A DNA stretch of 55,858 nucleotides from Chloroflexota bacterium. GTDB lineage: Bacteria; Chloroflexota; Anaerolineae; DUEN01. The first letter of the stretch is position 1. Every line of letters starts with the position of its first letter. The notes under the pieces were generated by a model. That model did no database searches. It was given only the letters and a program-made list of their open reading frames with translations, and was not told the origin of the DNA. Made by a program: the position numbers and the translations under genes. Of the stretch, positions 10,477 to 52,802 are shown piece after piece. Where the stretch lies: the NCBI GenBank assembly GCA_013152435.1, contig JAADGJ010000094.1, positions 1 to 55,858 of the forward strand, written 5' to 3'.

Positions 10477-10613
<137 letters not shown>

Positions 10614-22155: not shown

Positions 22156-22184
22156 TTGTCAATTGGGGGAGACCTGAGTATAAT
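22156..22184 (+). promoter_or_regulatory. Promoter of tRNA-Val
   Basis: TTGTCA (22156-22161), 17 bases, perfect TATAAT (22179-22184), ending 13 bases before the mature tRNA 5' end. Confidence 0.85.
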
Positions 22185-22197
22185 AGAGGCGAGATGT

Positions 22198-22274
<77 letters not shown>

Positions 22275-22280
22275 GGACAA

Positions 22281-22300
22281 GCCCGGCGAGATCGTCGGGC
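22281..22300 (+). terminator. Hairpin after tRNA-Val
   Basis: GCCCGGCG pairs with CGTCGGGC (one G-U), loop AGAT, followed by CTCATTTATA. A weak terminator; read-through into the T-box leader is possible. Confidence 0.5.
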
Positions 22301-22304
22301 CTCA

Positions 22305-22548
22305 TTTATACGGAAAGCGTTGATCGGGACGAGTACACGGGAAGCTGGCGTCAGAGAGGGAAGGTCGTCGGCTGAGAGCCTTCCCCGCAGAGCCCCGTGG
22401 AAAACCCCCCGAGAGCGGTTCCCTGAAATCGTGAGAGAGTAGGGGAGCCCGGGTGGCGCCGTTACCCGCCTGAGAGGGATCGCCCCGGTGGCGATCTGAA
22501 ATTGGGTGGAACCGCGAGGACCCCTCGCCCCAAGGGCGGGGGGTTTTG
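22305..22548 (+). promoter_or_regulatory. T-box leader (threonyl-tRNA responsive) with terminator
   Basis: The T-box core GGTGGAACCGCG (22505-22516) precedes an intrinsic terminator (CCCCTCGCC/GGCGGGGGG at 22521-22544, then TTTTG). Upstream a stem I region starts near GATCGGGACGAGTA. A Thr codon ACC at 22404-22406, next to GGAAA, is the likely specifier. Uncharged tRNA-Thr should pair with the core and block termination, raising thrS. Confidence 0.93.
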
Positions 22549-37041: not shown

Positions 37042-38213
37042 GCACGCTTTCCACAGGTGAGCAGAGCCGGCCCGCCGAAGCGCGCCCCGTGGCGAGCCCC
37101 GTTGTCCTCCCCCTGAGTCGCCCGCTGTGGAGCCCCATTCTCCTGGCCGTGAATGTGATCATCTGGCTGGTCATGATGGTCATCAGCGCCCGGCAGGCCG
37201 GCGGTCTACTGTCGGTGGGGCTGGACGTGAGCAGCCAGGTGCTGGTTATGTTCGGCGCCAAGGTGAACGCGCTCATCGCCACGGGGCAGTATTGGCGGCT
37301 GTTTACCGCCAACTTCCTGCACGTCAGCCTGTTTCACCTGCTGTTTAACAGCTATGCGTTGTGGCAGCTGGGCAACGAGGTCGAACGGATCTACGGCCGA
37401 TGGCGGTTCCTGGCGATCTATCTCCTGTCCGGGCTGTACGGGGCCGTGGCCAGCTATGCGTTGGGCTCGTACCTCTCGGCCGGGGCCTCCGGGGCCATCT
37501 TCGGCCTGGTGGGAACGCTGGTGGCCTATCTCCTCTTCCACCGGGAGCTCTTTGGGAAGCGCGGCCGGGCATATCTGAACAACATGCTCTTCATCGTGGC
37601 GGTGAACCTGTTCATCGGGGTCAGCACGCCCGGCATCGACAACTGGGGGCACATCGGTGGGCTGGTGGCCGGGTTCCTGCTGGGGCTGGCGTTGGCGCCG
37701 ATCTACCGGCTGCCCGCCGACCGGTGGTATCAGGAAGGTCCCGTCACCCTGGTAGATGTGGGATCGGCGCGCCGGCGCTTCCTGGCGATCGGCCTCGCCG
37801 TGATCCTGTTGATCGCCTTGGTGGCGGCCATCACGGCCTGGCAGCGGAACACGGCGACCGTGATGGTGCTGCGCGCGGAGCAGGCGATCGAGGCGAATGA
37901 CTGGGAGGCCGCCGAGCAGATGCTCCAGCGCATCGTTCAACAGGAGCCGGACCAAGCGGAGGCGCATTTCTATCTGGGAGTCGTGCAGGCTCATCAGGGA
38001 CGGATCTCGGAGGCGGCGCGTCACTGGGAGCGGGCGGCCGCCCTCGATCCCACCGAGCCCAACACCGCCTGGAACCTGGCGCTGGCTTATCGAACGCTGG
38101 GGCAGCGTGAGAAGGCGATCGAACAGCTGCAGCGATATCTGTCCCTGGTGGACAACGGGCCGGAGGCCGAGCGGGCTCGGGAGCTACTCACTCAGCTGCA
38201 GCAGGGCTCCTGA
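37038..38213 (+). CDS. Rhomboid-family intramembrane protease fused to TPR repeats
   Basis: 391 residues. Six to seven membrane helices; catalytic Ser151 in GASGAIFG and His205 in WGHIGGLVAGF make the rhomboid dyad, and NFLHVSLFHLLFNSYALWQLG is the family motif. After a further transmembrane helix (FLAIGLAVILLIALVAAI), residues 275-390 form about three TPR units (DWEAAEQMLQRIVQQEPDQAEAHFYLGVVQ and so on), which may bind substrates. The ATG overlaps the gmk stop. The last 26 bases overlap the end of the convergent SpoIID-domain gene. Confidence 0.92.
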   Translation: MSTLSTGEQSRPAEARPVASPVVLPLSRPLWSPILLAVNVIIWLVMMVISARQAGGLLSVGLDVSSQVLVMFGAKVNALIATGQYWRLFTANFLHVSLFHLLFNSYALWQLGNEVERIYGRWRFLAIYLLSGLYGAVASYALGSYLSAGASGAIFGLVGTLVAYLLFHRELFGKRGRAYLNNMLFIVAVNLFIGVSTPGIDNWGHIGGLVAGFLLGLALAPIYRLPADRWYQEGPVTLVDVGSARRRFLAIGLAVILLIALVAAITAWQRNTATVMVLRAEQAIEANDWEAAEQMLQRIVQQEPDQAEAHFYLGVVQAHQGRISEAARHWERAAALDPTEPNTAWNLALAYRTLGQREKAIEQLQRYLSLVDNGPEAERARELLTQLQQGS

Positions 38214-41200
38214 ACATCGTGGGCAGGTAGGTCCGCCGCGCGGCCACCGTGATCTGGGCTGGCGGGGACCACGCCCCGACCCGTCCGGCCAGATCGCGTG
38301 CCCGCACGCGAAACTCGTACGTGGTCCGGGGAAGCCCGGCGAACTGCTCCGTCCTCTCCGTGGTGCTCACCAGCCAGTCTTGCCATGTCTCGGCGCCTTC
38401 CTGGCGTACCTGCACGTCGTAGCTGGCGATGCCCGAGGCGTCATCCGCCCCCCGCCAATGCACCGGGAAGCGGGCCTCCGTCGTTCGGTGGGGCAGCAGC
38501 AGCGCGGCTCGGGGCGGCTCCAGATCGATGGACAGGGCGAGCGTCTTGCGCGTCTCCAGGCCGGCGATGTCCAGAGCCCGCACCTGGAGCGAGAGGATCC
38601 CGGGCTGGTCCACGACGATCGGCGTGGACCACTCCTGCCATGGCTGATCGTCCAATCGCCAGGTGACCGCACGGACCCCGGAGGCGGCGTCGGTGACGTT
38701 CAGGGTCACCGTGACCGGCCCCATGAACCAGCCATTATCGCCGATCTCCCCGTCGATCTGCAGCGTGACGGTGGGTGGGCGGGTGTCCACTTTTACCGGC
38801 AGCGGCGGGGATTCCCCCGTTCGGCCGTGCACGTCCTCCGCCCGGAATTGCACCCATAGCCCCTCACCCTCCCGCGGGTACATGGGGCGACAGGTCAGCG
38901 TCACGGGGGTGATCGCCCCGGCGGCGGCGTCTGCGGTGGCGGTCATCCACGCTCCCCACGTGATCCCCTGGTCCTCCGAGGCGCGGCAGGCGGACCCGGC
39001 GGGCTCGAAACCGCCGCGCGCTCGCACCGTGATGCGGACGTTGGGGCTCGTCGTGTCGGTGATCCAGTAGTTGGGGCCCGTCCCCTCCCATGAGCCCGGC
39101 CCTGGCATCTCCTCGAAGGATAGGCTCACCGGCCGTGGGTCGGAGGCGTTGCCGGCCCGATCGGATGCGACCACGGTCAGGCGTCCGGCGCGCGCCCCAT
39201 CCGGCAGTGGCCATTCGCCCTGAGGGGGCTCCAGCGTGGGGTATCCGATCACCAGGACCCGGTCCAACGCCAGATCAGAGGCGCCGGTGAAGCGCACGAG
39301 GAACCGCAGCCCGTCCGGAGACGGCTGGTCGTACCAGAAGTCCACGGGTACGTCCTGGTATCGATCTGGCTCCTGGAGATGGATCCCCCGGACCTCGGCG
39401 AGCCCCAGGAGCCGGGCGCCCGCGTTGGCGGTGACCTCCAGCTGTGCGACCGTGGCGGGGGTGAGGGGCGCCCCGCTTCGCAGGCGGAATAGCGCCCGGT
39501 AAATGCGCCCTACGGGCAGCGATCTGATCGGAGGACTGGTCCACACGCCGTTCCTGGCGCCGGCCGCCACCCACCGGGCCCGTCCGGCGCTGGCCTCGGT
39601 GTCAGTGATGGGGCCGCCGGGAGCGCCTTCGAACGTCTCCCCTTCCCAGAGCCAACCGGCGCTGATGCCGATCCCCTGGAATCCGGCCTGTCCTGTGTCA
39701 CCGCCCTGCAGGCCCAGGGTGATGGTCGGGGGAGGCCCGGTTGGCGGGAGCAGGATGGCTGTCCCCTGGGGACGATCCCGATCGACGCCCAGGCGGAGGG
39801 CGTTCTCCCCGGTGATGATGCCGGTTGCGGTCTCCGCGCTGACCGTGATGGTGGTCTCGGCGGCCAGGGAGGCGAGATCGACCGTCGCGTTCCAGCCGTC
39901 GGCGGGATCATTGTCCTCCCCGATCATCCGTCCATCCGCCCAGAAGACCACCCGGGTGATGACCTCGGAAGGGGTCGCGTTCGCGCTCAGCCGGACGCCG
40001 CTTCCATTGTAAAACCATCCACTCCAGGGGGCGGTCACGCCCAGGAGGACCGGGGCGTGTATCCCGGCGTTCCGGATCTCGACGCCCGTGTAGTAGTGGG
40101 CCAGGATCTGGAGCGCGTCCCAGCCGTATTGCGTCGCCCAGCGGTAGGCGCCCCATTGGCTGAGCCCATGGCCGTGGCCGCGCCTGGTGTACCCCAGGCT
40201 GACGGGATCGGGCACGGCGCTCAGATAGGGTGGCCCGCCGCTCACCGTCGGGTGGCCGTTATCGGCGCTGTACTGGGCGAGGATCGGGCGGCCCGCGTAG
40301 GCCAGGTATTGCCCTCGGGTGGCGGCGACGGCCGCGTCGCTGGCTGGATAGGTGGCGTCGCACATGACCTGGAAGTCGGTCCAATCCGTCACGTCGAAAT
40401 CCGCCCGCCCGCGCAGCACCTGATACCAGGCGTATGTGCGGGCCGCGATGGCCTGGGCGCGCAGGACGGCCTGGGGCCAGGACGCGGGGACCTCGGCGGG
40501 GACCACGCGGCGCACGTATTCCTCGAAGGGGATCTCGTCGACGGACCAGACGGGGCGGTTCCGGCAGTGATTGTCCGGGTGATGGAGGACGCGAATGGTC
40601 TCCGGCGGGGTGTAAATCGATGAGGCCGCCAGAGGCCGGCCGGAGGGCTCGGCGGTGGTGTGGGCGGGCAGGCGAGCGATCCGCTGGGCATTTGGCTCTC
40701 CCAGCCGGTAGAGCCAGACGGCGTCACCGTTCAGGTACGCGATGGCGCGGCCGTCGGGGGACCAGCGCGGCGCGTGGGCTCCATCGCCGTCGATCCGGCG
40801 GATGGGAGTCCCCTCGCCATCGGCCAGCCACAGCTCGGATTGCCCCATCGTCTCACTTCCGGACGGCGCCCGTTCGACGACGAGCCATCGCCCGTCCGGC
40901 GAGGGACGCGGTCGCCCCAGGATCCAGCCGGAGCCGCCCAGCGAGCGGGCTAGGCGATCCGGAATCGGGCTGGCATTGGTCGCTGGGAGTGGGGCCGGAT
41001 CGTCCCGAGGGAGGGTGGCGGACGGGCGCAGAGTGCCATCCAACCGGACGTATAGGTGCCTTTGAGGCGAGGCGAGGATGATGGCGTCGCCGTCGGCTGT
41101 CCACCCGAGCAGGGTCACAGGGCCTGCGATCGCCTCCCCTTGTGCGTGGGCGAGGGAGAGGAGCAACAGGGAGAGGGAGAGAGGGATCAGGGTTGCGATC

Positions 41201-41229
41201 AGCCAGCGGGTCGTGCGTCCCCAATGCAT
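38188..41229 (-). CDS. Large secreted SpoIID/LytB-domain protein with propeller-like and Ig-like modules
   Basis: 1013 residues. Signal peptide (LIPLSLSLLLLSLAHAQG). Residues 35-190 contain TolB/WD40-like units (RPSPDGRWLVVERAPSGSE; PRWSPDGRAIAYLNG). The SpoIID domain covers about 225-395: VDEIPFEEYVRRVVPAEVPASWPQAVLRAQAIAARTYAWYQ with the catalytic-type Glu246, and GYTRRGHGHGLSQWGAYRWA. Several beta-sandwich (Ig/FN3-like) modules fill the remaining 600 residues. SpoIID cleaves peptide-free glycan strands in sporulating bacteria; here it may trim the cell wall. It lies downstream of the NfeD gene on the same strand. Confidence 0.88.
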   Translation of the reverse strand: MHWGRTTRWLIATLIPLSLSLLLLSLAHAQGEAIAGPVTLLGWTADGDAIILASPQRHLYVRLDGTLRPSATLPRDDPAPLPATNASPIPDRLARSLGGSGWILGRPRPSPDGRWLVVERAPSGSETMGQSELWLADGEGTPIRRIDGDGAHAPRWSPDGRAIAYLNGDAVWLYRLGEPNAQRIARLPAHTTAEPSGRPLAASSIYTPPETIRVLHHPDNHCRNRPVWSVDEIPFEEYVRRVVPAEVPASWPQAVLRAQAIAARTYAWYQVLRGRADFDVTDWTDFQVMCDATYPASDAAVAATRGQYLAYAGRPILAQYSADNGHPTVSGGPPYLSAVPDPVSLGYTRRGHGHGLSQWGAYRWATQYGWDALQILAHYYTGVEIRNAGIHAPVLLGVTAPWSGWFYNGSGVRLSANATPSEVITRVVFWADGRMIGEDNDPADGWNATVDLASLAAETTITVSAETATGIITGENALRLGVDRDRPQGTAILLPPTGPPPTITLGLQGGDTGQAGFQGIGISAGWLWEGETFEGAPGGPITDTEASAGRARWVAAGARNGVWTSPPIRSLPVGRIYRALFRLRSGAPLTPATVAQLEVTANAGARLLGLAEVRGIHLQEPDRYQDVPVDFWYDQPSPDGLRFLVRFTGASDLALDRVLVIGYPTLEPPQGEWPLPDGARAGRLTVVASDRAGNASDPRPVSLSFEEMPGPGSWEGTGPNYWITDTTSPNVRITVRARGGFEPAGSACRASEDQGITWGAWMTATADAAAGAITPVTLTCRPMYPREGEGLWVQFRAEDVHGRTGESPPLPVKVDTRPPTVTLQIDGEIGDNGWFMGPVTVTLNVTDAASGVRAVTWRLDDQPWQEWSTPIVVDQPGILSLQVRALDIAGLETRKTLALSIDLEPPRAALLLPHRTTEARFPVHWRGADDASGIASYDVQVRQEGAETWQDWLVSTTERTEQFAGLPRTTYEFRVRARDLAGRVGAWSPPAQITVAARRTYLPTMFRSPAAAE

Positions 41230-41299: not shown

Positions 41300-42622
41300 T
41301 CACGTGTCGTGGATGGCGCGTGTCCTCCTCCGCACGATCAGACGCATGCCCTCCCGGCCGATCACCTCGACCTCCTCGCCCTGGTCGATGGGGCCGTCCT
41401 CCGCGATCGCCTGCCACAGCTCGCCCTGCAGGAAGACCGTGCCGATCGGATCCAGCTTGCTGCGCGCCTGGGCCCGGTGGCCGATCAGCCCTTCGAAGCC
41501 GGTGGTAGGCCGCCGCCGTTGTGCTCCTATGGCCTTGGCCACCACGAAGGCGAAGAAGGCGGAGGTGGCCAGGGAGAGGGTGAGGATCGTGGGCCAGGGG
41601 ACCTCCACGTCGGGCACGTTGAACAGGATGGCGGCGCCGAGCACAAAGGAGGCAATTCCTGCGACGGTTAGGATGCCGTGGGTGGGAGCTTTGATGTCCA
41701 GCAGGAACAGCACGAAGGCGAGCACGATGAAGCCCAGGCCGGTCCAGTTGGCGTCCAGCGCCCCCAGCGCGTAGAAGGCCAGCAGCAGGGCGACGGCGCC
41801 CGCGATGCCGGCGACGTATCCGCCCGGGCTTGACAGCTCGAACAGGATGGCGTTCAGCCCCAGGGTAAGCAGGATGGCGGCGATGGCCGGATTGGTGATG
41901 GTGTTGAGGAAGTTCTCCAGCGCGCCCAGGGGGATGTGGTGGACCTGCGCGTTGGCCGTGTGAAGGGTCACCTCCCGGCCGTTCACGTCCACCACCCGGC
42001 CGTCCAGCTGGCGCAGCAGATCATCTAGGTTGGTGGCGATCACATCGATCACGCCCAGCTCCAGGGCCTCGTCGGCGGTGGCCACGGCGGCCTCCTCCAC
42101 GGCACGGATCGCCCATTCCGTCGCCCTCTCGCCGCGGCGTTTCGTCATGTTCTCGATGTCGGCGACCAGGTCTTGCGTGATCTTGCGTTGGATCGTCTCG
42201 CCCAGGTCCTGGCCCTCGGATCCCACCGGGCTGGCCGCGCCGATGCGCGTGCCGGGGGCCATGGCGGCGATATGGGCTGCCAACGTGATGAAGGTGCCCG
42301 CCGAGCCGGCGTGGGCACCCTTGGGGGTCACGTACACGACGATGGGGATGTTCGCGTTGCGCATGCGCCGGGTGATCTTGCCCGTCAGATCGACGGAGCC
42401 GCCGGGCGTGTCCAGCTGCAGGATCAGCGCCGTCGCGCCGTCCCGCTCCGCCTGCGCGATGCCGCGCTCGACGTAGCTCACCAGCACCGGCGTGACCGGC
42501 CCCTTGAAAGTCAGCACGTCCACATGGGGGACGCCCTGGCCCGCGACGTTTACCGTTGAGAAGAGCCAGAGCAGTAGGGCCAGCCAGTAGCCGATCCCCA
42601 GCCGTCGTTCAAGCCGTCTCAT
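41300..42622 (-). CDS. nfeD: NfeD family membrane-bound serine protease (ClpP class)
   Basis: 440 residues. Signal peptide, then a ClpP-like protease domain: LQLDTPGGSVDLTGKI, catalytic Ser107 in AHAGSAGTF, and a Lys (147 or 161) as the partner base. Five or so membrane helices cover residues 230-365. The C-terminal OB-fold NfeD domain follows (FEGLIGHRAQARSKLDPIGTVFLQGELWQAIAEDG). Full-length NfeD proteins work with SPFH/stomatin proteins in membrane quality control; none is encoded here. ATG with GAGGTGAT upstream; 70 bases precede the SpoIID gene. Confidence 0.94.
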   Translation of the reverse strand: MRRLERRLGIGYWLALLLWLFSTVNVAGQGVPHVDVLTFKGPVTPVLVSYVERGIAQAERDGATALILQLDTPGGSVDLTGKITRRMRNANIPIVVYVTPKGAHAGSAGTFITLAAHIAAMAPGTRIGAASPVGSEGQDLGETIQRKITQDLVADIENMTKRRGERATEWAIRAVEEAAVATADEALELGVIDVIATNLDDLLRQLDGRVVDVNGREVTLHTANAQVHHIPLGALENFLNTITNPAIAAILLTLGLNAILFELSSPGGYVAGIAGAVALLLAFYALGALDANWTGLGFIVLAFVLFLLDIKAPTHGILTVAGIASFVLGAAILFNVPDVEVPWPTILTLSLATSAFFAFVVAKAIGAQRRRPTTGFEGLIGHRAQARSKLDPIGTVFLQGELWQAIAEDGPIDQGEEVEVIGREGMRLIVRRRTRAIHDT

Positions 42623-42690: not shown

Positions 42691-42877
42691 GTCCCACGGC
42701 GTCTCGGCGGTGTATCCAGGGAGCTTGGGTCGGTGACCTCCGGCCCCGCGGGGCAGGTGAGGGGCTGAAAATAGAGTTCCCCGGAGGGGCGATCGTCCAT
42801 CCGAGCCACCCCAGAGATGCGGGGCCACGTTCCCGTATCGCTTGACTTGATATCAATGCCCTGCCGTTCGGACCGCC

Positions 42878-42899
42878 CATACTACTACCATACTACTAG
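42878..42899. repeat. Two tandem 11-base units
   Basis: CATACTACTAC followed directly by CATACTACTAG in the nfeD-rpoB intergenic region. The palindrome TTGATATCAA lies just upstream (42846-42855). Possible protein-binding sites; nothing else supports a function. Confidence 0.4.
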
Positions 42900-42989
42900 A
42901 TGTTGGGTGGAATTATGAATCGGGTTGCGTATATAGTGGTTTGAAGAAAGGGGGCGAGTCTCGGGGGGACGCATCGCGAGGGCTCAATT

Positions 42990-43018
42990 TTGCCTTCGCG
43001 GGGATTATGACGTATACT
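42990..43018 (+). promoter_or_regulatory. Promoter of a candidate small RNA
   Basis: TTGCCT (42990-42995), 17 bases, TATACT (43013-43018). It overlaps the 3' arm of a hairpin (CGCGAGGGC/GCCTTCGCG). It drives the stretch ending in the terminator at 43154-43190. Confidence 0.55.
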
Positions 43019-43024
43019 TGGACG

Positions 43025-43190
43025 GAGGAAAGCACTTTACAGGCAGCCGTGCCGAGGCTCTCAAGCCGAGGCGGAAGGGCTCGACCCTGGGATTTCTGCC
43101 CATCACCGCCGTGCCCCTGTTGCCTCTTTGGGAGAACGGCCAAGGGATCCGCCGGCGTTGGTCCGTGGGAACGATGACCAACGCCCTTTT
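43025..43190 (+). ncRNA. Candidate structured small RNA upstream of rpoB
   Basis: About 165 bases with a promoter in front and a terminator-like hairpin behind, and no plausible protein. Internal structure includes GCC-GA-GGCT-CTCA-AGCC-GA-GGC (43051-43072), a stem with a tandem GA/GA internal loop and a 4-base loop. The hairpin AGGG-CTCGA-CCCT (43076-43088) follows. No match to 6S, RNase P, tmRNA or SRP RNA was convincing. It could also be a distal rpoB leader. Confidence 0.4.
43154..43190 (+). terminator. Terminator of the candidate small RNA
   Basis: Perfect 10-bp stem GGCGTTGGTC/GACCAACGCC (43154-43163 with 43176-43185), 12-base loop, then CTTTTG. Confidence 0.7.
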
Positions 43191-43210
43191 GACGCGAGCA
43201 GGAGCCGTTT

Positions 43211-43239
43211 TTGACAAGAAATTCCCCTTATGTTAGAAT
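43211..43239 (+). promoter_or_regulatory. Promoter of rpoBC
   Basis: TTGACA (43211-43216), 17 bases, TAGAAT (43234-43239). The inverted repeat TCGTA-TAT-TACGA (43239-43251) covers the likely start point. Confidence 0.88.
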
Positions 43240-43321: not shown

Positions 43322-43349
43322 AACCCATTCGTTTGGAGTGGGTTTTTTT
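43322..43349 (+). terminator. Attenuator in the rpoB leader
   Basis: Stem AACCCATTC/GGAGTGGGTT (43322-43330 with 43336-43344, one G-U), then a run of T to 43349. It lies between the rpoBC promoter and the rpoB ribosome site, 25 bases before the ATG. Confidence 0.85.
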
Positions 43350-43374
43350 GCGCGCAGAAGGAGTGGGTGGAAAG

Positions 43375-46300
43375 ATGATGAACCGGACGAACGAGAATCT
43401 TCTTCCGCAGTATAAGTCGTACGCCAGATTGCCTGACGTATTGGATTTACCCCGGTTGATCGAGGTCCAGCTGGAATCCTTCCGATGGTTCCAGAGTGAG
43501 GGATTGCGTGAGCTGTTCGACGAGATCAGTCCGATCGTCAGCTTCAATCGGAACCTGGAGCTGCATTTTGGCGAGTTCTGGTTCGCGGAGCCCAAGTACA
43601 CGGAGCAGGAGTGTCGTGATCGGGATATGACGTATTCGGCTCCGCTGTGGGTGAAGGCGAAGCTCATCAACAAGGAGACTGGTGAGATCACCGAGCAGGA
43701 CGTCTTCATGGGCGATTTCCCGCTCATGACGGACGCGGGCACCTTCATCTATAATGGCGCGGAGCGCGTGGTCGTCAGCCAGTTGATCCGATCCCCGGGC
43801 GTGTACTTCACGGTGGAGGAGGATCGGACGACCGGCCGCGATCTCTGTTTTGCCAAGCTGATCCCGGCGCGAGGGGCGTGGCTGGAGTTTGAGACCTCCA
43901 AGCGCGATGTCCTGTCCGTGAAGGTGGACCGCAAGCGAAAGCTGCCCGTGACGATCCTGCTGCGGGCGATCGGCTTTGGTACGGATGACGAGATCCGGGA
44001 GCTTTTCGCCGAAGTCGACAACATGCCGGAGCATCCGTACATCGAGGCCACGCTGGAGCGCGATCCCACCTCCACGCCGGGGATCGGCGAGGAGGCTTCC
44101 AAGCAGGGCGTGGAGGCCGCCCTGTTGGAGTTCTACAAGCGGCTTCGACCGGGGGATCCACCGACCCTGGAGAATGCGCGCAACTTCCTGCAAAACCTGC
44201 TGTTCACGCCGCGTCGATATGATCTGGGACGTGTGGGACGTTACAAGCTGAATCGTCGCCTGGGGCTGGCCGTGCCGCAGACCCAGCGCACCCTGACCAA
44301 GGAGGATCTGGTCAAGGTCGTCGAGGTCATGATCCAGATCAACAACGGCGTGGACTCGGGGGATGATATCGATCACCTGGGCAATCGCCGCGTGAAGACC
44401 GTCGGCGAGCTGATCCAGAACCAGCTGCGGATCGGGTTGCTGCGCATGGAGCGCGTGGTGCGCGAGCGCATGTCCATTCGCGATCCGGAGCAGCTGAGCC
44501 CGCTGTCCCTCATCAATATCCGGCCGGTGGTGGCAGCCGTGCGCGAGTTCTTCGGCGGCTCTCAGCTCAGCCAGTTCATGGATCAGACCAATCCGCTGGC
44601 TGAGTTGACCCACAAGCGGCGCCTCAGCGCGCTGGGGCCGGGCGGGCTGAGGCGTGAGCGCGCCGGCTTCGATGTGCGAGACGTCCACCATAGCCACTAC
44701 GGCCGCATCTGTCCCATCGAGACCCCGGAAGGTCCCAACATCGGGTTGATCGGCTCGCTGGCTACCTACGCCCGCGTGAACGAGTTCGGCTTCATTGAGA
44801 CGCCCTATCGCCGTGTGCTCAGCGAGGTTCCCAACGAGCCCTCCCGGCTGGTCAACCGCACTTTGCGTGAGGACGTCGTCGACCCGGACACCGGCGAGGT
44901 CGTGGCCGAGGCGGGCACCATCGTGGACGAGGCGCTGGCCGAGCGCATCGCCGCGTTGCGGGACCAGTTGCCCATGATCAAGGTGCGGCCGTTTGCGACC
45001 AACGAGATCGTGTACCTCACCGCGGATGAGGAGGAGCGTCACTCCATCGCCCAGGCCAGCACGCCGTTGAACGAGCGGGGCGAGTTCATGAACCCCCGCG
45101 TGTCCGTCCGCCGCAGCGATCGGTTCCTCTTCGAGTCGCCGGAGCGGGTGGATTACATGGACGTGTCCCCCAAGCAGATCGTCTCCGTGTCGGCCGCGTT
45201 GATCCCCTTCCTGGAGCATGATGACGCCAACCGGGCGTTGATGGGGTCGAACATGCAGCGCCAGGCGGTGCCCCTGCTGCGTCCGGAGGTGCCGCTGGTG
45301 GGCACCGGCATGGAGCGCCAGGCCGCGCTGGATTCCGGACAGGTGGTGACGGCCAAGAACCCCGGTGAGGTGGTCAGCGTCACCTCCAGCGAGATCGTGA
45401 TCCTGGAGGAGGATGGCACCCGCCGGACGTACTCGTTGCGCAAGTTCAACCGCTCGAACCAGTCCACCTGTATCGACGAACGGCCGGCCGTGGTCAAGGG
45501 GCAGTGGGTAGAGGCCGGCGATGTGTTGGCCGACTCCAGCTCGACCGAGGCGGGGCGGTTGGCTCTGGGACAGAACGTGTTGTGCGCCTTCATGAGCTGG
45601 GAGGGCGGCAATTACGAGGATGCCATCCTGATCTCCGAGCGATTGGTGCGAGAGGATAAATTCTCCTCGATTCACATTGAGAAGCACGAGGTGGAGGCCC
45701 GGGATACCAAGTTGGGCCCCGAGGAGATCACCCGGGATATCCCCAACGTGGGGGAGGATGCGCTGCGGAACCTGGACGAGGAGGGGATCATCCGCATCGG
45801 CGCGACGGTGGGCCCGGGCGACATCCTGGTCGGGAAGATCACACCCAAGGGCGAGACGGAGCTGAGCCCCGAGGAGAAGCTGCTCCGAGCCATCTTCGGC
45901 GAGAAGGCGCGTGAGGTGAAGGATTCCTCCCTGCGCCTGCCGCACGGTGAGCATGGCAAGGTGGTGGACGTCAAGGTGTTCTCCCGGGATGAGTACCGGG
46001 ATATGCCCGCGGGCGTGGAGAAGATGGTGCGCGTGTCGGTGGCCCAGCGACGTAAGCTCAGCGCGGGCGATAAGATGGCCGGTCGCCATGGCAATAAGGG
46101 CGTGATCTCCAAGATCGTGCCCATTGAGGATATGCCCTTCCTGGAGGACGGCACGCCGGTAGATATCATCCTGAACCCGTTGGGCGTGCCCGCCCGTATG
46201 AACATCGGTCAGGTGCTGGAGACACATCTGGGGTGGGCGGCCGAGCGCCTGGGCTTCCACGTGATCACGCCGGTGTTTGATGGCGCCAAGGAGGATGAGA

Positions 46301-47256
46301 TCGAGGCCGAGCTGGCGCGGGCCTGGCTGATCGACAAGGCGTGGCAGGAGATCACCGACCGGGCCTGGATGCGTGTGAAGGAGCTGGAGCTGCCCGAGGA
46401 CTACCTGCGGGACGACGAGGAGGCGCGCATCCTCTATATCCTGGAGTGGCTGTCCGATCGCTCCGAGTATGATTTGGAGCGCATCCGCCAGGATCGAGTG
46501 TACGCCCGTCGTGTGGTGTTGCGGGAGTGGCTCCGGGAGCGGGGCTACGATCCCGATGCTGTGCTGTCCTTTGAGGATGATCCCCGGCCGGCCGAGGAGC
46601 GGCGGCAGGTGGACGAGCGCGCCCGCCTGGTCTGTTGGCGGGAGTGGTTGCAGCACCACGGCGTGGACGCCTCGCAGGTGCCCGATGAGGAGCTGCGGGA
46701 GTTCGCCGAGAAGACCAGCCAGGAGATCGGCTGGCCGCTGCCGACCACGGGCAAGCAGAAGCTGTACGACGGCAAGACGGGCGATCCCTTCGATCAGCCT
46801 GTGACCGTGGGGATCATCACGATGATGAAGCTGGCTCACCTGGTGGAGGACAAGGTGCATGCCCGCTCGACGGGCCCCTACAGCCTGGTCACGCAGCAGC
46901 CTCTGGGCGGCAAGGCCCAATTCGGCGGCCAGCGCTTTGGCGAGATGGAGGTGTGGGCGCTGGAGGCGTACGGAGCGGCCTACACCCTTCAGGAGATGTT
47001 GACCGTGAAGTCGGACGACGTCGCCGGCCGCGTGAAGACGTACGAGGCCATCGTCAAGGGCGAGCCCATCAGCCCGCCGGGCATCCCGGAGTCGTTCCGG
47101 GTCCTGGTGAAGGAGCTGCAGTCGCTGGGCCTGGCCGTAGAGGTGATCAACGAGCAGAAAGAGGTGGTCCAGTTCGGTCGGGAGGATGTGGAAGAGCGCC
47201 TGCCCAAGTTGGGCTTTAGCCTGAGTGTACCCGGCCCTATGGCGGGATACGAGTGA
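43375..47256 (+). CDS. rpoB: RNA polymerase beta subunit
   Basis: 1293 residues from ATG 43375 (AAGGAG 11 bases upstream; ATG 43378 also possible). All core segments are present: the rifampicin region [32 protein letters not shown] with sensitive-type residues, the [18 protein letters not shown] block, [18 protein letters not shown], and the C-terminal [36 protein letters not shown] lineage insert of about 135 residues (about 980-1118), rich in charged helices, lies between [14 protein letters not shown] and [19 protein letters not shown]. rplJ/rplL do not precede it here. rpoC follows after about 190 bases. Confidence 0.97.
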
Positions 47257-52680: not shown

Positions 52681-52802
52681 GGATGCAAGATGCAAGACGT
52701 ACCCGGTCTTGCATCTTGTGTCCTGTCTGGAGGTTGGTACCCGGATTCGCCGTCGGCGAGCCGACGGGATCCGGGGAGAGGGGGAGGTCGATCGGACTCC
52801 CC
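52681..52802 (+). promoter_or_regulatory. Array of strong hairpins between rpsL and rpsG
   Basis: The 52607-52853 gap holds no gene. Hairpin 1 is an 18-bp stem (52681-52698 with 52706-52723, two G-U pairs), loop GTACCCG. Hairpin 2 is CCCGGAT/ATCCGGG plus CCGTCGG/CCGACGG (52740-52775), loop CGAG. Hairpin 3 is GGGGAG/CTCCCC (52781-52786 with 52797-52802). None has a U tract. In E. coli the rpsL-rpsG gap is where S7 binds to repress translation; similar use is possible. Confidence 0.6.

Follow-up and report, generated by a model that had tools for sequence, protein, structure and literature searches.

The locus upstream of rpoB in this Chloroflexota genome raises the question of whether it holds a small RNA gene with its own promoter and terminator, apart from the signals that serve rpoB. 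The analysed window is contig C94 (55,858 bases) of a 4.97-Mb genome, and the nearest relatives used for comparison were three genomes (labelled G001, G002 and G003), one from the same genus and two from the same family. The candidate lies in a 752-bp gap flanked by a divergent nfeD-like gene on one side and rpoB on the other. The former (41300-42622, minus strand) encodes an NfeD-like membrane protease with the Pfam domains NfeD1b_N, NfeD_membrane, NfeD and CLP_protease, all over their cut-offs; the latter was assigned to an open frame at 43375-47256 (plus strand), the start of which was read from the sequence. The N-terminal part of RpoB had matches in 59 of 60 genomes, and among named records the protein was closest to those of 'Caldilineae bacterium isolate J4' (93% over 274 residues) and 'Anaerolineae bacterium isolate AUK314' (92%), which places the host among Chloroflexota of the Anaerolineae/Caldilineae kind.

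The predicted unit begins with the promoter-like site TTGCCT-17-TATACT (42990-43018, plus strand), which matches the consensus at 9 of 12 positions and has an expected start near 43025. A perfect 10-bp hairpin (43154-43185, plus strand; stem GGCGTTGGTC/GACCAACGCC) follows 135 bases past the -10 element, with pair probabilities of 0.94-1.0 and a 12-base loop made up of CGT-GGGA-ACG plus AT. After the stem comes CTTTTG, and the terminator-like element as a whole ends at 43190; its T-run is short (4 T). This hairpin was missing from the standard terminator scan because the scan admits only hairpins with 3-8 loop bases and 5 T in 8. From the positions of the two signals, a transcript of ~165 nt (43025-43190, plus strand) is predicted. 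The rpoB promoter TTGACA-17-TAGAAT (43211-43239, plus strand) is a conserved neighbour outside the candidate and starts 21 bases after the T-run; it aligned with G001 (76% over 51 bases) and was recognized by eye in G002 and G003. Thus, the promoter, the hairpin with CTTTTG about 135 bases downstream and the rpoB promoter about 20 bases further on, all of which had been described in an earlier sequence-only reading, are present.

The chance occurrence of these signals was estimated using 2000 dinucleotide shuffles of 42990-43210. A promoter-like site on the same strand appeared in 34 shuffles and a perfect 10-bp hairpin with a loop of 3-15 in 7, while requiring 4 or more T within 6 bases as well left none, so that the real hairpin with its T-run is rarer than chance. 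Note that these figures flatter the case for the candidate, since the features were picked after the sequence had been read. A scan of the real sequence is a more telling control. Both strands of the window were scanned for promoter-like sites with a hairpin (stem of at least 8, loop 3-14, 4 T in 7) 50-350 bases downstream. The totals were 15 promoter-like sites and 9 terminator-like hairpins on the plus strand, and 8 and 1, respectively, on the minus strand. Pairs of the two were found at three loci of the plus strand (tRNA-Val, the candidate and the rpoB leader) and at none of the minus strand. The pair at 22156-22300 encloses an authentic free-standing RNA gene, tRNA-Val, with a promoter at 22156, the tRNA at 22198-22274 and a hairpin at 22281-22300. 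The rarity of the hairpin with its T-run, together with the presence of just three promoter-hairpin loci in the window, makes a short transcription unit likely, and the proposal of an own promoter and terminator thus gains support from predicted signals that exceed chance. The G+C content of the candidate body (0.634; flanks 0.534 and 0.457) is close to the window mean (0.651), and therefore composition says little.

The two long frames upstream of the gap (38188-41229 and 41300-42622, with a family match for the second only) are both located on the minus strand. Hence there is no evident plus-strand gene that the hairpin at 43154-43185 could end. The favoured reading is that a short unit of ~165 nt, specific to this lineage, is transcribed on its own between the nfeD-like gene and rpoB; we assign it a probability of about 0.55. 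It is supported by the rarity of the hairpin with T-run, the three-locus pairing, the lack of a plus-strand gene to end and the lack of a protein family; the absence of a homologue from the genomes searched, a fold z-score of -0.56, the four T, the promoter match of 9/12 and the choice of features after reading count against it.

Next, the internal structure was considered. The block GCCGAGGCT-CTCA-AGCCGAGGC (43051-43072, plus strand) can be drawn as a symmetric stem with tandem GA pairs, and this stem had been proposed as a mark of selected RNA structure. The symmetric block is indeed present; selection for RNA structure did not find support. The fold of 43018-43193 had an energy of -69.8 kcal/mol against a shuffle mean of -67.3 kcal/mol (z -0.56), and 61 of 200 shuffles were as good. 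Pair probabilities for the ensemble of 43025-43193 were 0.026 for the outer GCC/GGC pairs of the stem and 0.33-0.39 for the inner GGCT/AGCC pairs. The exact GA/GA stem was found in 0 of 2000 shuffles, but this pattern was chosen after it had been seen; a generic hairpin (7/9 pairs, loop 3-8) was found in 1563 of 2000. Moreover, GCCGAGGC is a near-palindrome, so that the block can just as well be read as two direct copies of these 8 bases. The symmetry of the block alone is no evidence of an RNA stem.

In order to establish whether the candidate belongs to a known family, Rfam 15 was searched, and no family reached its gathering threshold in the candidate stretch; the best sub-threshold match inside it scored 16.9 bits (40 required, E 1.3). 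This agrees with the earlier suggestion that no known RNA family accounts for the candidate. The titles and abstract openings listed in searches of the open-access PMC literature yielded no Chloroflexota sRNA or rpoB leader. 6S RNA is similar in length to the candidate, and since it acts on RNA polymerase, it comes to mind for an RNA next to rpoB. However, the candidate had no match to 6S RNA (RF00013) up to E 10, and the host's own 6S RNA was found on contig C70 (82 bits, over the cut-off), so that this identity was rejected.

The candidate had also been described as not protein-like. Five open frames overlap it, of 78 and 72 codons on the plus strand and of 76, 70 and 72 codons on the minus strand, and in none of them was a Pfam family found over the cut-off, which is in line with that description. 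Both plus-strand frames and a GGAGGA near the expected RNA start could suggest a small protein gene instead of an RNA gene, but no ATG, GTG or TTG lies at ribosome-binding distance from GGAGGA, and the 72-codon frame crosses the hairpin into the rpoB promoter. The sole family match is a 12-residue one below the cut-off (E 0.093), in a frame that extends into the rpoB promoter, and the genomes searched yielded no DNA relatives. A small protein gene is thus very improbable.

To evaluate the distribution of the candidate, BLASTN searches were performed. Among 60 genomes (own and 59 others), the full stretch was found in the own genome only; short matches of 18-27 bases (E 0.009 to 0.1) occurred in 17 of the 59 others. 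A 576-base query against the four family genomes revealed, outside the own genome, only two stretches of a dispersed repeat (in G001). No homologue was found in 396 class genomes (392 of them beyond the family; two candidates per genome scored). Matches at E 0.001 were present in two of the 396, the own genome and one class member with a 25-base match (E 3e-4), which was rejected as a homologue since it sits inside an open frame of 471 codons. A covariance model based on the candidate sequence alone (two identical rows) gave a strong match in the own genome only, among 31 genomes. In 9 of the 30 others, 12 weak matches were found at E <=1 (best 22.4 bits, E 0.003), and these were not accepted as distant homologues, the best 4 of the 12 lying inside open frames of 463-971 codons. 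A scan of viral contigs with rpoB revealed no relative. Upstream of the rpoB promoter, candidate included, no alignment was obtained with the three family relatives; for G002, the contig holds 326 bases before the RpoB match, that is, about half of the candidate's place. It is plausible from these comparisons that the stretch is lineage-specific, being absent from the relatives examined.

In the own genome, no second copy of the candidate was found beyond two weak partial matches (E 0.08), and none of 42859-43035. The interval 42720-42858 (plus strand) is the degraded right part of a dispersed repeat that ends before the candidate, and the candidate itself was rejected as a repeat or mobile element. 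The repeat occurs at at least 40 places in the own genome, the window copy included, with 82-88% identity (40 of 121 candidates scored); elsewhere in the family, it was found in the same-genus genome only (two matches of 41-45 bases). The unit is ~279 bp long, and its terminal inverted repeats are imperfect. Of the other 39 copies, 36 were examined; both ends were found by pattern in 17 of the 36, and the direct repeats of ~20 bases that flank these had a mean identity of 0.87 (14 of 17 at least 0.82; 3 at most 0.60), compared to a mean of 0.53 and a maximum of 0.86 for swapped flanks. Many flanks lie within GC-rich palindromes. The repeat can be described as MITE-like, with an unusually long target duplication.

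These results also bear on the possibility that nothing functional is present, i.e., that the promoter-like site and the inverted repeat both arose by chance in an unconstrained intergenic stretch. The lack of conservation in any genome searched, the lack of a fold signal, family members without alignable sequence upstream of the rpoB promoter and the degraded mobile repeat ~130 bases upstream are all consistent with it. Nevertheless, the hairpin with T-run was not reproduced in any of the 2000 shuffles, and the promoter-terminator pairing is one of just three in the window, which makes a purely accidental origin rather unlikely.

The location next to rpoB had led to the suggestion that the candidate could regulate the synthesis of RNA polymerase. 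This suggestion gained no support. All three family relatives retain the rpoB promoter and the leader hairpin, but the candidate aligned with none of them (two genomes fully covered, G002 about half), and a conserved position of the kind expected of an rpoB leader or attenuator was not found for it. Pairing of the candidate with the rpoB leader was considered and rejected, as the duplex energy of -90.2 was close to the mean of -88.6 for single-base shuffles, 80 of 200 of which were as strong.

A related explanation is that the site at 42990-43018 is a second, upstream promoter of rpoBC. RNA from 43025 would pass a leaky terminator at 43154-43190, the read-through would join the rpoB transcript, and the hairpin would serve as an extra attenuator. 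The short T-run (4 T), the orientation of the unit towards rpoB, its end 21 bases before the rpoB promoter and the second, attenuator-like hairpin in the rpoB leader are consistent with such an arrangement. The family comparison argues against it, since the candidate promoter and hairpin are unaligned in the three members (G002 part-covered), all of which retain the promoter and leader hairpin of rpoB; we consider it unlikely. A further reading, in which a fast-evolving orphan sRNA gene precedes rpoBC and its terminator and the conserved leader hairpin act as two successive attenuators, sensing the RNA polymerase level by termination efficiency at rpoBC itself, is a long shot.

The inverted repeat could also serve as an operator in the DNA, bound by a dimeric protein that regulates rpoB, given its perfect 10-bp arms with centres 22 bases apart and its position just upstream of the rpoB -35. 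However, the core pattern (<=2 mismatches) was no commoner than a reversed control in the four family genomes (24 against 34 in the own genome), the candidate's copy was the only perfect one among them, and the inverted repeat is unaligned upstream of rpoB in the relatives. An operator is accordingly scarcely credible.

The stand-alone unit, our preferred reading, could work as follows. RNA polymerase of the sigma-70 type would start near 43025 and stop near 43190, past the hairpin at 43154-43185; we infer that the candidate is transcribed and ends there. The product would be an untranslated RNA, with the 3' terminator stem as its only firmly predicted structure. If it has any action, the most likely mode would be that of a small RNA of this species that base-pairs in trans, which is a guess. 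The candidate terminator may in addition prevent transcription of the unit from running into the rpoB promoter. Bacterial intergenic small RNAs that possess a promoter and an intrinsic terminator of their own form a general class, and the candidate is similar to them in its sigma-70-like promoter, its predicted length of ~165 nt, its terminator-like hairpin, the lack of a coding family and its restriction to one lineage. It differs in that it is predicted from sequence, has neither a conserved body nor a known target and carries only four T after the stem. A lineage-specific orphan sRNA of an ordinary kind is a plausible description. If transcribed, it would add a candidate stand-alone regulatory RNA, without a known target, to Anaerolineae-type Chloroflexota.

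The conserved rpoB leader hairpin is a stronger lead than the sRNA candidate. It is located outside the candidate at 43322-43351 (plus strand), directly before the ribosome-binding site, and consists of AACCCATTC-GTTTG-GAGTGGGTT followed by a T-run, an attenuator-like arrangement. The hairpin with T-run, the ribosome-binding site and the rpoB start aligned in all three family relatives (70-82% over 120-130 bases). The 3' arm GAGTGGGT was observed to recur in the rpoB ribosome-binding site (window 43322-43371, plus strand), so that the 5' arm of the leader could pair with either, giving two mutually exclusive pairings.

The wider occurrence of such hairpins was estimated using upstream regions of rpoB, of which 72 were collected and 68 used. 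The sources were the genomes with RpoB (58 regions from 59 genomes, own window included) and 13 of 20 Chloroflexota named loci (L058-L070); the named loci L056 and L057, which repeat G001 and G002, and L071-L075 were left out. Four collected regions were dropped, namely L060 and L211 (repeats of other loci), L210 (identical sequence) and L194 (too short). With a rule of stem >=7, loop <=10 and 5 T in 7, applied to the 164 bases before the RpoB match, a terminator-like hairpin was found in 9 of 68 loci, compared to an average of 0.21 and a maximum of 2 in 100 shuffle sets. The control region 500 to 336 bases upstream contained such a hairpin in 2 of 65 cases. The relaxed rule (4 T in 7) gave 13 of 68 loci (shuffles 0.82, maximum 4). 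Most of the class is without such a leader hairpin by the survey rule. The nine positive loci are not independent, as a single stem is common to four loci of one family and another to L058 and L063; counted with L040, L200 and L205, this leaves about five unrelated stems at the same place before rpoB. The recurrence of unrelated, predicted stems at one place across families of the class suggests that RNA polymerase synthesis, driven by the promoter of rpoB itself, is subject to attenuation.

In E. coli, the attenuator is a terminator-like hairpin directly before rpoB; the rplJL-rpoBC attenuator was reportedly described by Barry, Squires and Squires in 1980. By analogy, the neighbouring hairpin at 43322-43351, and not the sRNA candidate, may be compared with it, as it also stands directly before rpoB. 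Unlike the E. coli attenuator, this hairpin lies 83 bases after an rpoB promoter, has the divergent nfeD-like gene as the next gene upstream and is a putative terminator, predicted from the sequence. According to a review (PMC10931766), rpoBC is under its own autogenous control; the attenuation treated in PMC13236596 is that of ilvB1, not rpoB.

In the rpoB leaders of several class members, e.g., at L030, L047, L068 and L200, a recurring motif was also seen by eye, in which GCGCG or GTGCG comes after a T-rich run. Examples are TTTTTGCGCG, TTTTCGCGCG and TTTTGTGCG, preceded in some cases by a short-loop hairpin, and this is possibly a shared rpoB leader element. Elsewhere in the window, a SAM riboswitch (10479-10613, plus strand) and a T-box leader (22311-22535, plus strand) were found, both over their Rfam thresholds, and a perfect 13-bp inverted repeat, CAAGATGCAAGAC/GTCTTGCATCTTG, is located downstream of the rpoC frame (52686-52718, plus strand).
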